From a virus, in IMG/VR virus record IMGVR_UViG_3300045999_012606, positions 1 through 20,801 of that record: 20,801 nt of DNA; one strand, given 5' to 3'. A program made the position numbers and the translations under genes. Below, one piece after another: positions 2,022-20,801 of this stretch. Each line of letters starts with the position of its first letter. Within the stretch, counting starts at the first letter, position 1. The notes under the pieces were generated by a model, which saw only the letters and a program-made list of their open reading frames with translations, was not told the DNA's origin and did no database searches.

Positions 2022-3092
2022 TCACGCGACGTTGTACTTTCCGCGAACGATAGCTTCCGGCCTCAGTACTTTTCTACCGTAGACATGCATACCACGAACG
2101 ATGTCAGCGAAGCTGTCAGGATCGCGATAGGTTTCGGTCTTGGTGATGGTTTCAGCAGTAGCCACAGCCGACTCATGACCGGCAACGATGATGCCGTAGT
2201 TGTCGTTCTGGTTAGCCGTACCAGCAGTGCCGGGACCGGTGCCGATAGCAGGCAGGTTGTTCGACACATACACCTTGAAGCCGTGCAGGTTGCTCAGCAC
2301 AAGACCGTTCTGCAGACCAGAGCCACCGAAGTCGCTGTTGAGCAGACGGCTGTCTTCGTCCTTCAGCATTTCCACGAAGATCGGGTCAATCACAAGGAAA
2401 CGACCGTTGGAGTCAACGTTCTGTTGATCCAGCAGACGAGACATGCGAGAGATGATCATCAGCGGCGACACACGATCAGTCGGCAGAGAAGTCGTACCCG
2501 GCAGACGCGGAGTCACAGGGATAGAATGCTCACCAGCAGACGCCGTCGTGATGCTAGCGAAAGAACCCTTCTTCAGCTTCATCGAAGCCAGCAACTCATC
2601 GCTGTCAGCCGTAGCAACAGCAGCCGTGCCAGAAGCGGTGGTACGAGCCACAGTGGCGTTAGCATTCAGAGCAGCCTGTTGGAAGCCCGTCATGTAGCCC
2701 AGAACGTCTTGGTCGTAGTTGTCCTTCAGACGATAGGCAGCACGATCAGACGCCAGAGACATCCAATTGATGTGCGACTGCGAAGACTCAATGTCATCCA
2801 CCTTGAAAGCGAAATAGGCAGACTTATCGACCACCAGAGTGAAGTCGCTGTCGTCGAGGTCTTGCGCCGTCACTTGAGTGCCACGCGCATAGTTCTTGAC
2901 AGAGATTTCAGGTTCCTTGATGATCTTCACCGAATCGCCCACATTGGCGATTTCGCCAAAGTAGTCGTTATTGGTGATAGCTTCAGCAACGGAAGACTTA
3001 CGGAAAGCAAGCTGAACTTGCTTGGAATAGATAACCGGCGACCAGTTACCATTAGGAAGATTGCCCCAACCCGGAGCAGCAGCAAATGCCAT
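2022..3092 (-). CDS. Major capsid protein (HK97 fold, P22 coat-like)
   Basis: This 356-aa protein has the usual length for a phage major coat protein that forms the icosahedral head. The N-terminal part shows SVKIIKEPEISVKNYARG and DDSDFTLVVDKSAYFAFKVDDI, a pattern typical of the N-arm, E-loop and spine-helix region of P22- and T7-type coat proteins (recalled, not searched). Later parts contain RFLVIDPIFVEML and LHGFKVYVSNNLP, common in this family's A-domain. The start at 3092 has GGAGAAATCATC before it. It is separated from the scaffold gene by about 210 bases containing a terminator and hairpin, suggesting its own transcription signals or regulated read-through. The order scaffold then capsid is classical. 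Confidence 0.93.
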   Translation of the reverse strand: MAFAAAPGWGNLPNGNWSPVIYSKQVQLAFRKSSVAEAITNNDYFGEIANVGDSVKIIKEPEISVKNYARGTQVTAQDLDDSDFTLVVDKSAYFAFKVDDIESSQSHINWMSLASDRAAYRLKDNYDQDVLGYMTGFQQAALNANATVARTTASGTAAVATADSDELLASMKLKKGSFASITTASAGEHSIPVTPRLPGTTSLPTDRVSPLMIISRMSRLLDQQNVDSNGRFLVIDPIFVEMLKDEDSRLLNSDFGGSGLQNGLVLSNLHGFKVYVSNNLPAIGTGPGTAGTANQNDNYGIIVAGHESAVATAETITKTETYRDPDSFADIVRGMHVYGRKVLRPEAIVRGKYNVA

Positions 3093-3238
3093 GATGATTT
3101 CTCCTATATTAGCATTTAATACTGTCTTAGGATTTTATCGGGCCTTGCGAGAAATAGGTGGTTATACTTAACTGATCTAGTTTCAATTAACTACAACGGC
3201 TATCTGCTTGGGTTGTCGATACAACACTTGACAGAAAC

Positions 3239-4226: not shown

Positions 4227-5894
4227 TTAGTTGAGTTGAAACGTTTCCGGCTTAAATCCACCGCCACCGCCACCGCCATAGCCATAGCCTCCGTCGTAGC
4301 CGCCATAGCTACCACCGCCGATGCCATAGCCTCCGTCGTAGCCGCCACCAAAATTATCCCAACCCCAGAAGTCTATATCAAACGAGTCAACGTTGTCAAA
4401 TCCTCTGAAGTCAGACATAAAGTCTGCACCAGACAAATCACGTGTTTCTACTGGAGCATTGAGGTCAATAGTTTTTGCATAGTCTGCACTTACGCCACTG
4501 TCGATCAACGATTGTTGTGCAGCCTTTACTGCGGCATCAGCATCCTTAGTATCACGATATGCATTTGCTGCTGACTGAGTAGCTGCTGCAATTTGTTCGG
4601 GAAGCAAACCAATGTCGCTAGCGTTAAGCTGATCAGCAATAGACGAGCTAATTGAAGCAGCATATCCACCAGTACCAGTTACACCGGGGGTGTTTGCAGC
4701 CTGATTAAGCGGCATACTTGTCAAAGTATCGATCTGTGATGCTGCTGCAGCGCGACCAATTGGGCTTGTTTGAGAAGTAGATAGTCCACTAATTGGATCA
4801 AGAATTGGCTCTACTCTATTAACATCAATTCCACTAACTCTAGCAGCATCTCTTTGATTAGCCTCAGCAAAGAACGTATTAAAGGCATCTACGCCAAACT
4901 TATTCATAGCTGCTCTGGCACCCATTGTAAGAATGCCGGGAACACCCATCGCAGATGCCAACGCACTCAATGCGGCACTACCAAGAGACACTTGCCATTT
5001 ACTAACACTATTTTGCCAAAGATCATCTGGCATCAATTCACCACCGGGACCGCTGCCACCGGGATTGTAAATCATAGTTGGATTGCCAAAGTCTGCTAAA
5101 TTGCTACCAGTATATGTACCTGTAATGAATTCATTGCCGCCTACACCATTAGTCGTTGACCCTGATGTAGCTGATGTATTGTCTGTTCCCGTAACAACAC
5201 CACCAACAACTGCACCAGCACCTCCAGCGCCACCACCGCCGCCAGCTTCGCCGAGAGGGTCACTAGGAGTTATTCTTTTTGTAGGTCTGCTACTCTGCTG
5301 TATAGCACCATTAGGCATAGGCTTCATAGGCTTGCCGTTGATGAACGGCATGTAGAAGTCTTTACCTTCGTTGTCTTTGAAGAAACGAATGTCTAGCGCA
5401 GGATTCTTTGGTGCTTTCTCAATGTCGTAATAGCTAGCGTTGACAAAGCCGCCAGTGTTGAATGCCATCTCCGTCTGACGACCAATTTCATTTTGATCGA
5501 CTTCTTTCATAATGCCATCGATTTCGTTTTCGAAGTCGTCGTCTTCTTCAAACGAGTCATCAGAGGCTTCACCAACGGCTTCAGCATTACCCATTTGACC
5601 AATGTCATTCATACGAGCAAGACCACGCTTAGCGTCGTCTCGCAGCTTCATCAGTCGCTCAAGACCAATGAAACGAACAACATCAGCAGGGATGACAAAC
5701 TCACCCGGTGACAACTTAGCGTCAACGTCATCCCTCACTTCTTCAGCAAGGCTACCCGTAGGCACATCATTGCCGCTGACGGGATCGACGTCTTTGCCAT
5801 CGTCCATCATCCCGCCTTCAGCGAACAACTTCTTTTTGTTTGTAGTGATGGCTCCAACGCCAACTTTACTACTACGTTTTTTCCCGAAGCCCAT
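4227..5894 (-). CDS. Large virion-associated protein with Gly/Tyr-rich C-terminus
   Basis: 555 aa. Residues about 60-92 contain LSPGEFVIPADVVRFIGLER followed by a basic helix; this 'L-PGEFV---V--IG---L' motif recurs in large phage structural or putative internal/tail proteins. Residues 111-128 are an Asp/Glu patch. Residues 215-236 are a Gly/Ala-rich linker. About 300-350 is an Ala-rich helical, moderately hydrophobic part. The last 47 residues are Gly/Tyr/Asp-rich (GGGYDGGYGIGGG and similar) and end PETFQLN. The gene overlaps the 73-aa gene by 23 bases. Location between portal and scaffold suggests a head-neck or ejected protein. The exact role is unknown. Confidence 0.85.
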   Translation of the reverse strand: MGFGKKRSSKVGVGAITTNKKKLFAEGGMMDDGKDVDPVSGNDVPTGSLAEEVRDDVDAKLSPGEFVIPADVVRFIGLERLMKLRDDAKRGLARMNDIGQMGNAEAVGEASDDSFEEDDDFENEIDGIMKEVDQNEIGRQTEMAFNTGGFVNASYYDIEKAPKNPALDIRFFKDNEGKDFYMPFINGKPMKPMPNGAIQQSSRPTKRITPSDPLGEAGGGGGAGGAGAVVGGVVTGTDNTSATSGSTTNGVGGNEFITGTYTGSNLADFGNPTMIYNPGGSGPGGELMPDDLWQNSVSKWQVSLGSAALSALASAMGVPGILTMGARAAMNKFGVDAFNTFFAEANQRDAARVSGIDVNRVEPILDPISGLSTSQTSPIGRAAAASQIDTLTSMPLNQAANTPGVTGTGGYAASISSSIADQLNASDIGLLPEQIAAATQSAANAYRDTKDADAAVKAAQQSLIDSGVSADYAKTIDLNAPVETRDLSGADFMSDFRGFDNVDSFDIDFWGWDNFGGGYDGGYGIGGGSYGGYDGGYGYGGGGGGGFKPETFQLN

Positions 5895-13119: not shown

Positions 13120-13506
13120 TTATTTCTTCCTATATTTCGCTGTCTTAGCAGCCACAACCTCTGGCTGAGCAACAAATTGCTTACCAGCTTTACCACCAGC
13201 AGCCTTAGCTGCATTGGTAGCTTTCTTCTCAGACTCGCTCAAAGCAGACCACGCTGCTTTCGGTAAATAACGACGCTTTCCTTCAGAGGGCTTTCCAGAC
13301 GACGTTGTCCATTCTTCCTTAGTCCATTTCGTCATAGACTTCTGAGCTTCTGTCTTTTCTCCGGTGTAGTCGCCGCCTTTGTCTTTATATATTTTACCAG
13401 CAAGCTGTGCTTTTCTTGCACTCCATTGTCCAGCATCACCACCCTTGCTACTAGCTTTAACATCGGAAACAACTTGTTTCCACAGCTTTTCGTTAGAGCG
13501 AGGCAT
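13120..13506 (-). CDS. DUF5872-like basic protein, 128 aa
   Basis: Residues 1-80 contain KLWKQVVSDVKASSKGGDAG, WSARKAQLAGKIYKDKGGDY and SMTKWTKEEWTTSSGKPSEG followed by RRYLPKAAWSALS. This matches my memory of DUF5872, a small lysine-rich family in phages and giant viruses. A Lys/Ala-rich C-terminus follows. Function unknown; the strongly basic composition suggests nucleic-acid or virion-DNA contact. Its start overlaps the end of the HNH endonuclease gene by 14 bases, and its TAA is one base from the next ATG. Confidence 0.87.
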   Translation of the reverse strand: MPRSNEKLWKQVVSDVKASSKGGDAGQWSARKAQLAGKIYKDKGGDYTGEKTEAQKSMTKWTKEEWTTSSGKPSEGKRRYLPKAAWSALSESEKKATNAAKAAGGKAGKQFVAQPEVVAAKTAKYRKK

Positions 13507-13981
13507 GATCTAGAACTTTTTTACAAAGCATGCGAAAGTTATCAACAGACAAATCTTGTTTGCAGTTATTCACTTGCCATGTAACAAGACATACATTTTC
13601 TTTGATGTAACCTTTTGAAGAGTCAATACGATCTACTGAGAGTGTTGTCGACATGCCACTTTGTAAACTTAGAGCATCTCCAGTGTAAACGCACAACCCG
13701 TTTTGTTTATGGAATAGGTACATCAAGTAGTCTACCCCAAAGTCTAAATCAAGATTTTTTTCTCTTACACGCCTTGTCAGGTAAGAATATACACGCTTAC
13801 AAGCTCTTTCTACTGTAGCTGTTTCTTGCCTATATCTTTTGTTTCTTGATGAATTGCACTGCTTACAATAAGTCATGTAACCAGTAGGTTTTGACTTGTT
13901 TGCTGTAAATTCAGATAGTGGTTTTGTTGTACCACATGTAGTGCAAACAGTAATTAACAGTTCATCACTTGTAATAAGCAT
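13493..13981 (-). CDS. HNH homing-endonuclease-like protein with zinc ribbon
   Basis: 162 aa. The N-terminus has a zinc-ribbon pair C13-x2-C16 and C39-x2-C42 (VCTTCG; TYCKQC), then a basic helix (SSRNKRYRQE). The C-terminal half shows LCVYTG and LSVDRIDSSKGYIKENVCLV near 114-133, the 'DRID--KGY---N' core of phage HNH nucleases. Such enzymes cut DNA and act as free-standing homing genes. The gene is visibly more AT-rich than its neighbours and interrupts a run of small basic protein genes, which suggests insertion by transfer. It overlaps the DUF5872-like gene by 14 bases. Confidence 0.88.
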   Translation of the reverse strand: MLITSDELLITVCTTCGTTKPLSEFTANKSKPTGYMTYCKQCNSSRNKRYRQETATVERACKRVYSYLTRRVREKNLDLDFGVDYLMYLFHKQNGLCVYTGDALSLQSGMSTTLSVDRIDSSKGYIKENVCLVTWQVNNCKQDLSVDNFRMLCKKVLDHASL

Positions 13982-20287: not shown

Positions 20288-20335
20288 TCATTCCGTCGCA
20301 GCAATGTCGCTGCACTCTCTCCGAAAGGAAACATC

Positions 20336-20623
20336 ATGACCAATCTGACTATCAATGGCGTTGAATATACTCCTGTGAAGCCTGCTACCAATACCCGTGC
20401 TGTTGTCGTTGTTGATCGCGGCTGGATTTTCGCTGGTGATGTAACCCGCGAGAACGGACGCATTCGACTGAGCCGTGCATTGCATGTGTTCAAGTGGGAG
20501 TCCATCGGCTTTGCCAAGATGGTTGAAACCGAAAACGCCGATCTGCGTCCTATCTCGGATGTGGATTTGCCAGAAGGCGCAGAGATTTTCTGCATTCCTG
20601 TAGCTGACGATTGGGGCCTGTGA
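20336..20623 (+). CDS. Conserved small protein, DUF6948-like, 95 aa
   Basis: The start at ATG 20336 follows CCGAAAGGAAACATC. MTNLTINGVEYTPVKPATNT, then RAVVVVDRGWIFAGDVTREN and ALHVFKWESIGFAKMVETEN, ending VDLPEGAEIFCIPVADDWGL. The layout 'R--V---G-(V/I)FAG-(L/V)------L--A-----W-----A------P....--P---EI---' reminds me of DUF6948 phage proteins, which in my memory often precede Gly-rich repeat proteins as here. Confidence in the family is moderate. The TGA stop overlaps the ATG of the repeat gene (TGATG), so the two are coupled. Confidence 0.82.
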   Translation: MTNLTINGVEYTPVKPATNTRAVVVVDRGWIFAGDVTRENGRIRLSRALHVFKWESIGFAKMVETENADLRPISDVDLPEGAEIFCIPVADDWGL

Positions 20624-20801
20624 TGGCATCGTTGATGCACCCAGTTGGCTACGGCGACGGCTACAACTACGGCTACGGCGACGGCGACGGCTACGGCGAC
20701 GGCAACGGCAACGGCTACGGCTACGGCTACGGCTACGGCAACGGCGACGGCTACGGCAACGGCTACGGCTACGGCTACGGCAACGGCAACGGCTACGGCG
20801 A
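20623..20801 (+). CDS. Gly-Tyr/Asp/Asn dipeptide-repeat protein (runs off right edge)
   Basis: ATG at 20623-20625 overlaps the previous stop (TGATG). After MASLMHPV the protein is an almost perfect series of Gly-X dipeptides, X being Tyr, Asp or Asn: GYGDGYNYGYGDGDGYGDGN and so on to the end of the window (26 dipeptides seen, the last incomplete). The only break is one Asn-Tyr pair. It should be intrinsically disordered or form stacked Tyr/Gly structures; no function known. No separate ribosome site is seen, so translation probably depends on coupling to the 95-aa gene. The C-terminus lies outside the window. Confidence 0.8.
   Translation, partial: MASLMHPVGYGDGYNYGYGDGDGYGDGNGNGYGYGYGYGNGDGYGNGYGYGYGNGNGYG
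20647..20801 (+). repeat. (GGC-NAC)n hexanucleotide tandem repeat
   Basis: From 20647 to the window end the sequence is built of 26 hexamers GGCTAC, GGCGAC or GGCAAC (one exception, AACTAC at 20665-20670; the last hexamer is cut one base short). Only the fourth base varies and is never C. The repeat continues past the edge. Confidence 0.95.

Follow-up and report, generated by a model that had tools for sequence, protein, structure and literature searches.

The repeat gene at the end of the window, by which we mean the whole 20,801-nucleotide stretch of viral DNA that was analyzed, occupies the second position in a conserved two-gene cassette common to unrelated phages. Its array of Gly-X codon pairs grows, shrinks, and homogenizes by replication slippage or unequal recombination, and selection holds the array in frame, preserves the alternation of Gly with X, and limits X to a few residues. 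The product is most likely a disordered, multivalent partner of the protein encoded by the first gene and would take part in the DNA or RNA metabolism of the phage early in infection.

The repeat gene (20623 to 20801, + strand, 59 whole codons) opens with an ATG at 20623 and stays open through the last base, reading MASLMHPV-GYGDGYNYGYGDGDG and onward, with a full readable product of MASLMHPVGYGDGYNYGYGDGDGYGDGNGNGYGYGYGYGNGDGYGNGYGYGYGNGNGYG. The window spans a whole IMG/VR record of 20,801 bases, so the gene breaks off where the contig stops and lacks its C terminus. Contigs that end within the array are common; of 78 close relatives, 9 (the window's included) do so. The repeat itself is real. 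Tandem Repeats Finder placed a period-6 array of 25.5 copies, with the unit GGC-[T/G/A]AC, at 20647 to 20799 (+ strand; score, 215). The first-pass annotation had described a gene made of this hexanucleotide, which is correct from 20647 to the cut end but not for the first 8 codons, which are not repeat. These codons belong to a head, MASLMHPVG (20623 to 20649, + strand), whose xP[VIA]G form recurs in 74 of the 78 close relatives. Similarly, the statement that Gly is always encoded by GGC held for every one of the array's 25 Gly codons, but one position in the alternation has AAC in place of GGC (20665 to 20667, + strand, giving GYNYG). Codon counts agreed with the remaining description, in that the X codons (14 Tyr, 5 Asp, and 6 Asn) all end in AC, CAC is absent, and variation within the window array is confined to one base of six.

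This purity is far beyond what the rest of the window would predict. Codon usage in the window has GGC for 37% of Gly, TAC for 39% of Tyr, GAC for 48% of Asp, and AAC for 56% of Asn, and given the residues of the array, the observed codons have a probability of approximately 10^−19.8 under the usage of the window's other genes. A run of 3 GGC[T/G/A]AC units precedes the interruption, the longest unbroken run is 21 units, and in the rest of the window the motif occurs only as single-unit runs. No higher-order period was found in the order of the X residues in the window array. Elsewhere in the window, a 555-amino-acid protein adjoining the portal gene (4227 to 5894, − strand) has its own Gly/Tyr-rich tail, GGGYDGGYGIGGGSYGGYDGGYGYGGGGGGG, which contains a period-21 repeat (4281 to 4347) of another type than the GGC-NAC array. 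A nine-base repeat of 5 copies (349 to 394) encodes a Val-Thr-Thr tract within an open reading frame at 245 to 655 (− strand), and the product of 13493 to 13981 (− strand) is Endonuclease VII/HNH-like, with additional matches to the PHROGs sigma70 decoy and Srd anti-sigma factor families.

The gene directly upstream (20336 to 20623, + strand) encodes 95 amino acids and begins 4 nt after a Shine-Dalgarno-like sequence, AAAGGAAA (20324 to 20331, + strand); the GAAAGGAAA motif is also found ahead of other plus-strand genes in the window. Its stop codon overlaps the start of the repeat gene in the sequence TGATG (20621 to 20625, + strand), and in nearly all close relatives the repeat gene starts either at −1 or at an in-frame GTG at −4. 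With the two reading frames arranged in this way, translation of the upstream gene and the repeat gene is probably coupled.

AlphaFold2 modeled the globular upstream protein as a small beta-barrel (mean pLDDT, 82), and the predicted order of the barrel resembles that of Sm/LSm proteins, such as archaeal Sm and the Sm-like metagenome protein 3BY7. Among the matches listed when Foldseek was run against the PDB, most were Sm/LSm chains with weak scores (best E value, 0.01; TM score, 0.4 to 0.55), there was no sequence match to Sm/LSm proteins, and PDB sequence profiles gave no significant match for the window proteins. The barrel is predicted to be Sm/LSm-like. Among viral models, Foldseek matched proteins of PMBT5 and of a Rheinheimera phage as well as DUF6948 proteins, including a DUF6948 model in BFVD (E value, 8e-4; TM score, 0.65). 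The window protein itself had no Pfam match and did not reach the curated cutoff of 27 bits for DUF6948 (PF22253). Homology to this family runs through more distant siblings, since the window-family profile aligned to the distant-sibling profile with an E value of 4e-14 (hhalign) and those siblings match DUF6948 with E values of 1e-4 to 1e-2 (best score, 22.7 bits, under the 27-bit cutoff). By profile comparison and predicted structure, the upstream protein is classified as a divergent relative of Pfam DUF6948. No paper mentioning DUF6948 was found in the literature searched. Scans of 2 and of 369 sampled bacterial genomes gave no DUF6948 match, but the controls gave none either, so these scans carry no weight.

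A search for homologs carrying the same 95-amino-acid upstream gene had been proposed in the first-pass annotation, and a scan of IMG/VR viral contigs recovered 256 relatives. Of the 80 that were fetched, 77 had downstream sequence, and all 77 had a (Gly-X)n open reading frame of 34 to 139 amino acids directly after the upstream gene, usually starting from an overlapping ATG. In this close branch, the repeat protein consists of a head (..[FM]RP[VI]G), the Gly-X tract, and a tail (G[TS][VCI]xxxRxRR). The reverse search, starting from (Gly-X)n arrays, found a relative of the upstream gene at 47 of 119 loci, many with 26 to 48% identity. A profile built from distant upstream relatives (A3) recovered 419 loci, and in a fetched sample of 80, which includes a few contigs that seeded the profile, a Gly-X array was the next gene at all 76 loci that could be judged. 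The basic C-terminal tail (GTxxxxRxRR) was not present in this distant branch.

Cassettes from named phages show how widely the pair has spread. Eggerthella phage PMBT5 encodes gp37, with 37% identity to the upstream protein, followed by gp38, a Gly-X protein of 108 amino acids; Rheinheimera Barbavirus (115 records) encodes the partner as gp018 and the Gly-X protein as gp017; and Rhodobacter RcapNL carries the cassette as gp47-gp46, shortly after a CI-like repressor. Like the window, all three have a homologous first gene and a (Gly-X)n second gene, but with other head and tail peptides. The cassette is also present in MW202566, where the repeat codons are mostly GGT-NAT, and in three bacterial metagenome-assembled genome contigs, among them Burkholderiales and Dechloromonas. 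In MW202566, the Gly-X gene (L206, 2742 to 2981) is unannotated, and the record gives an overlapping frame, MVKVMVMV... (2815 to 3105). Some loci (L054, L034, L019, and L061) carry a tandem pair of Gly-X genes, and L019, L061, L110, and L120 contain a separate type, MKYPKG...AYPYPLVTR or similar. Gly-X tracts also occur fused to other small phage domains (L012, L035, L057, L079, L106, L024, L212, L245, L077, L089, and L116), including DUF7666, a GACIDGV-type N-terminal domain, a CYIAK..FAHG C-terminal domain, and a FWRSDEKGQPANSGG domain, the last three of which had no Pfam match.

The neighborhood of the cassette points to the early region of phage genomes. Genes for ERF, RecT, AAA_24, YqaJ, DUF3799, DUF669, SSB, or NinB, which are single-strand annealing recombination functions, flank 33 of 84 loci, a count made without a control set. 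In Barbavirus, the cassette lies between DNA polymerase and exonuclease, and a study of a Barbavirus phage places replication genes in the first expression cluster (PMC9305737). No tail genes were among the mapped neighbors of the cassette.

Active slippage or recombination with selected substitutions had been suggested from the window alone, and the relatives bear this out. Array length is polymorphic both in metagenomic contigs and in cultured isolates, and the refuting pattern named in the first-pass annotation (an invariant length with synonymous codon variation in relatives) was not borne out. Sister contigs with identical upstream genes have arrays whose lengths lie whole numbers of 6-nt units apart (products of 101, 95, and 139 amino acids in one case). 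Eight isolates of one cultured Rheinheimera phage species carry six array alleles, with zero differences in the 318 nt before and the 450 nt after the Gly-X gene. These alleles have one extra 6-nt unit at three different places or a changed X residue, and they use solely GGC, TAC, AAC, and GAC codons. Two isolates of a sister species have arrays 12 nt apart. Because these ten isolates were chosen partly for differing, they do not provide allele frequencies. Array length appears to be loosely tuned rather than fixed.

Codon use within arrays also fits turnover. The commonest Gly codon had a median share of 1.0 per array, and among 136 distinct arrays the top Gly codon was GGC in 121, GGG in 10, GGT in 4, and GGA in 1. 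Most synonymous change among relatives took the form of one unit replacing another throughout the array; the unit is GGC-NAC, GGG-NAC, GGT-NAC/NAT, or GGA-NNC depending on the phage, while Gly-X stays constant. Since each array uses one Gly codon almost purely and this codon differs among phages, the DNA unit is homogenized by repeat turnover with Gly-X retained. Genome-wide codon preference was ruled out as the cause by arrays that run against their own genome's preference; for example, in L125, which is closely related to the window, 42 of 43 Gly codons in the array are GGG, whereas the other open reading frames of L125 prefer GGC. Preference cannot explain such pure, phage-specific Gly codons, whereas repeated expansion from a few units can.

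The residues at X also point to selection on the protein. Across 3,588 X positions, Tyr (1,680), Asp (865), Asn (415), and Ser (405) made up 94%, and His was found 22 times. At the codon level, CAC was counted 18 times, compared to 184 for TAT and 1,496 for TAC, despite the fact that a single transition converts TAC to CAC. Avoidance of GGCC restriction sites was considered as a cause and dropped; CAC is as rare after non-GGC Gly codons (3 of 427) as after GGC (15 of 3,025), so site avoidance is not needed to explain its absence. Every array is read from a start codon in the frame that gives Gly-X, and its ends are also conserved within the close branch. The pattern thus reflects turnover and protein-level selection together. 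One locus (L197) has an array with both ends present and about 5 Gly-X units, and such arrays show that the tract need not be long and multivalent in every case.

The Gly-X protein was compared with several known systems, of which the following three were rejected. A diversity-generating retroelement target is ruled out, as the second base of all X codons in the window is an invariant A and the Barbavirus alleles change X via the first base or change whole units. RTX calcium-binding repeats (GGxGxDxUx) differ from the strict G-X of the window protein, which has no GG. The TrAA12 family (PF22807) scored 25.3 bits against a cutoff of 30.9 and covered 49 of 463 positions; one relative scored 32.4 bits, above the cutoff, over about 53 positions, as a compositional match. 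Apart from this subthreshold compositional hit to TrAA12, Pfam, PHROGs, and NCBIfam contained no family for either window protein. Both PF22807 and NCBIfam NF033849 give Gly-X arrays a score by way of a low-complexity stretch, which makes them a likely source of wrong annotations. Prion-like or Gly/Tyr low-complexity domains, such as those of FUS and hnRNPA1 and the linkers of SSB, resemble the Gly-X product in composition (Gly with Tyr, Asn, Ser, or Asp) and in its predicted disorder, but the Gly-X tract is a strictly alternating dipeptide without Gln or Arg. Low-complexity phage proteins are already known as a kind, and a survey of low-complexity regions in prokaryotes and phages found aromatic residues heavily underrepresented (PMC6821194). 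In the literature searched, we found no phage paper with a Gly-X repeat string of this sort and nothing relevant on Gly-Tyr phage repeats or phage LSm proteins.

A mechanism that would join these observations begins with an intrinsically disordered Gly-X protein, in which Tyr residues would serve as stickers and Gly, Asp, Asn, and Ser as spacers. This protein would work together with the upstream protein, to which it would supply a multivalent tail in trans. Sm and Hfq proteins carry their tails on the same chain, whereas the cassette encodes its low-complexity part in a gene of its own. The basic C-terminal tail GTxxxxRxRR of the window's subfamily may add contact with nucleic acid, and the two proteins would assemble loosely, or condense, on the DNA or RNA of the phage while early replication or recombination takes place. 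An AlphaFold2 model of the L203 homolog of the repeat protein, run without an alignment, had a pLDDT of 37, which is weak evidence of disorder. Taken as a whole, the explanation of a coupled cassette with a slipping array under protein selection, making a condensate-like assembly with the upstream protein, has about an even chance of being right. A bolder version can be offered tentatively, in which the cassette is a widespread, previously undescribed phage nucleoprotein system. An LSm-like protein and a separate hypermutable Gly-Tyr scaffold would make a condensate-like compartment where the phage replicates or recombines, and array length would be a fast-evolving tuning knob.

The main rival is a role in counterdefense, which we regard as improbable. 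The pair would then be a counterdefense or host-takeover unit in which the Gly-X protein serves as a decoy or a slippery substrate and sequesters or jams a host factor, such as an AAA+ protease or a defense sensor, and changes in length would mark an arms race. Small early genes with very fast turnover between conserved flanks fit this role, as do the spread of the cassette over unrelated phages and the position of the RcapNL pair just after a CI-like repressor. However, a pure decoy needs no constant neighbor gene, and the X alphabet is narrow rather than diversifying. A known link to defense was also looked for and none was found; RcapNL does encode a known anti-CRISPR, AcrIC9 (PMC7391736), but nothing ties it to gp46 or gp47.

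The surface, DNA-only, and artifact readings of the array are unlikely. The first-pass annotation had raised a surface protein or adhesive fiber, and Gly/Tyr-rich repeats do occur in silks and adhesives. The PMBT5 database record likewise names gp38 an "adsorption protein," a label for which the PMBT5 paper offers no evidence. That paper reported six virion proteins by mass spectrometry, with gp38 neither among them nor discussed, although trypsin would miss gp38 because its array has no internal Lys or Arg. A virion, surface, or adhesion role is made very doubtful by the early replication and recombination setting of the gene, with recombination genes at more than one-third of fetched loci and no tail gene among the mapped neighbors, and by the lack of a signal sequence recognizable by eye; an identity as an adsorption or tail protein was rejected on the same position and virion list. 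Equally doubtful is a function of the array as DNA or RNA (a recombination hot spot, quadruplex, pausing site, or packaging signal), with the protein as a by-product. Extreme codon purity and regular GG spacing speak for such an element, but the Gly codon of the unit differs between phages (GGC, GGG, GGT, or GGA) while Gly-X stays, the frame is that of Gly-X in all cases, the ends are conserved in the close branch, and X is constrained by residue and not by base. Neutral, microsatellite-like expansion or an assembly artifact is the most remote of these explanations. Short-read assemblies often break inside the array, and arrays can exceed the read length, as in the first Barbavirus isolate set, sequenced with 125-bp reads (PMC6715854). 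Nevertheless, the extra units in the Barbavirus alleles lie within runs of no more than 5 identical units, shorter than a read, and the array recurs across hundreds of independent contigs as well as cultured genomes, with the same partner alongside, in frame in every case, and with conserved ends and a narrow X alphabet.

The cassette provides a natural coding repeat that slips fast while a protein rule, Gly-X with X being Tyr, Asp, Asn, or Ser, is retained, both across unrelated phages and within one isolate collection. Gly-X genes have been missed or misannotated, one record giving the wrong frame and another the adsorption label. Because cultured phages that grow on laboratory hosts carry the pair, its role and the effect of repeat number can be tested directly. 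If the two proteins do make condensates, they would offer a minimal viral system of two genes in which to study sticker-and-spacer rules and how these evolve.
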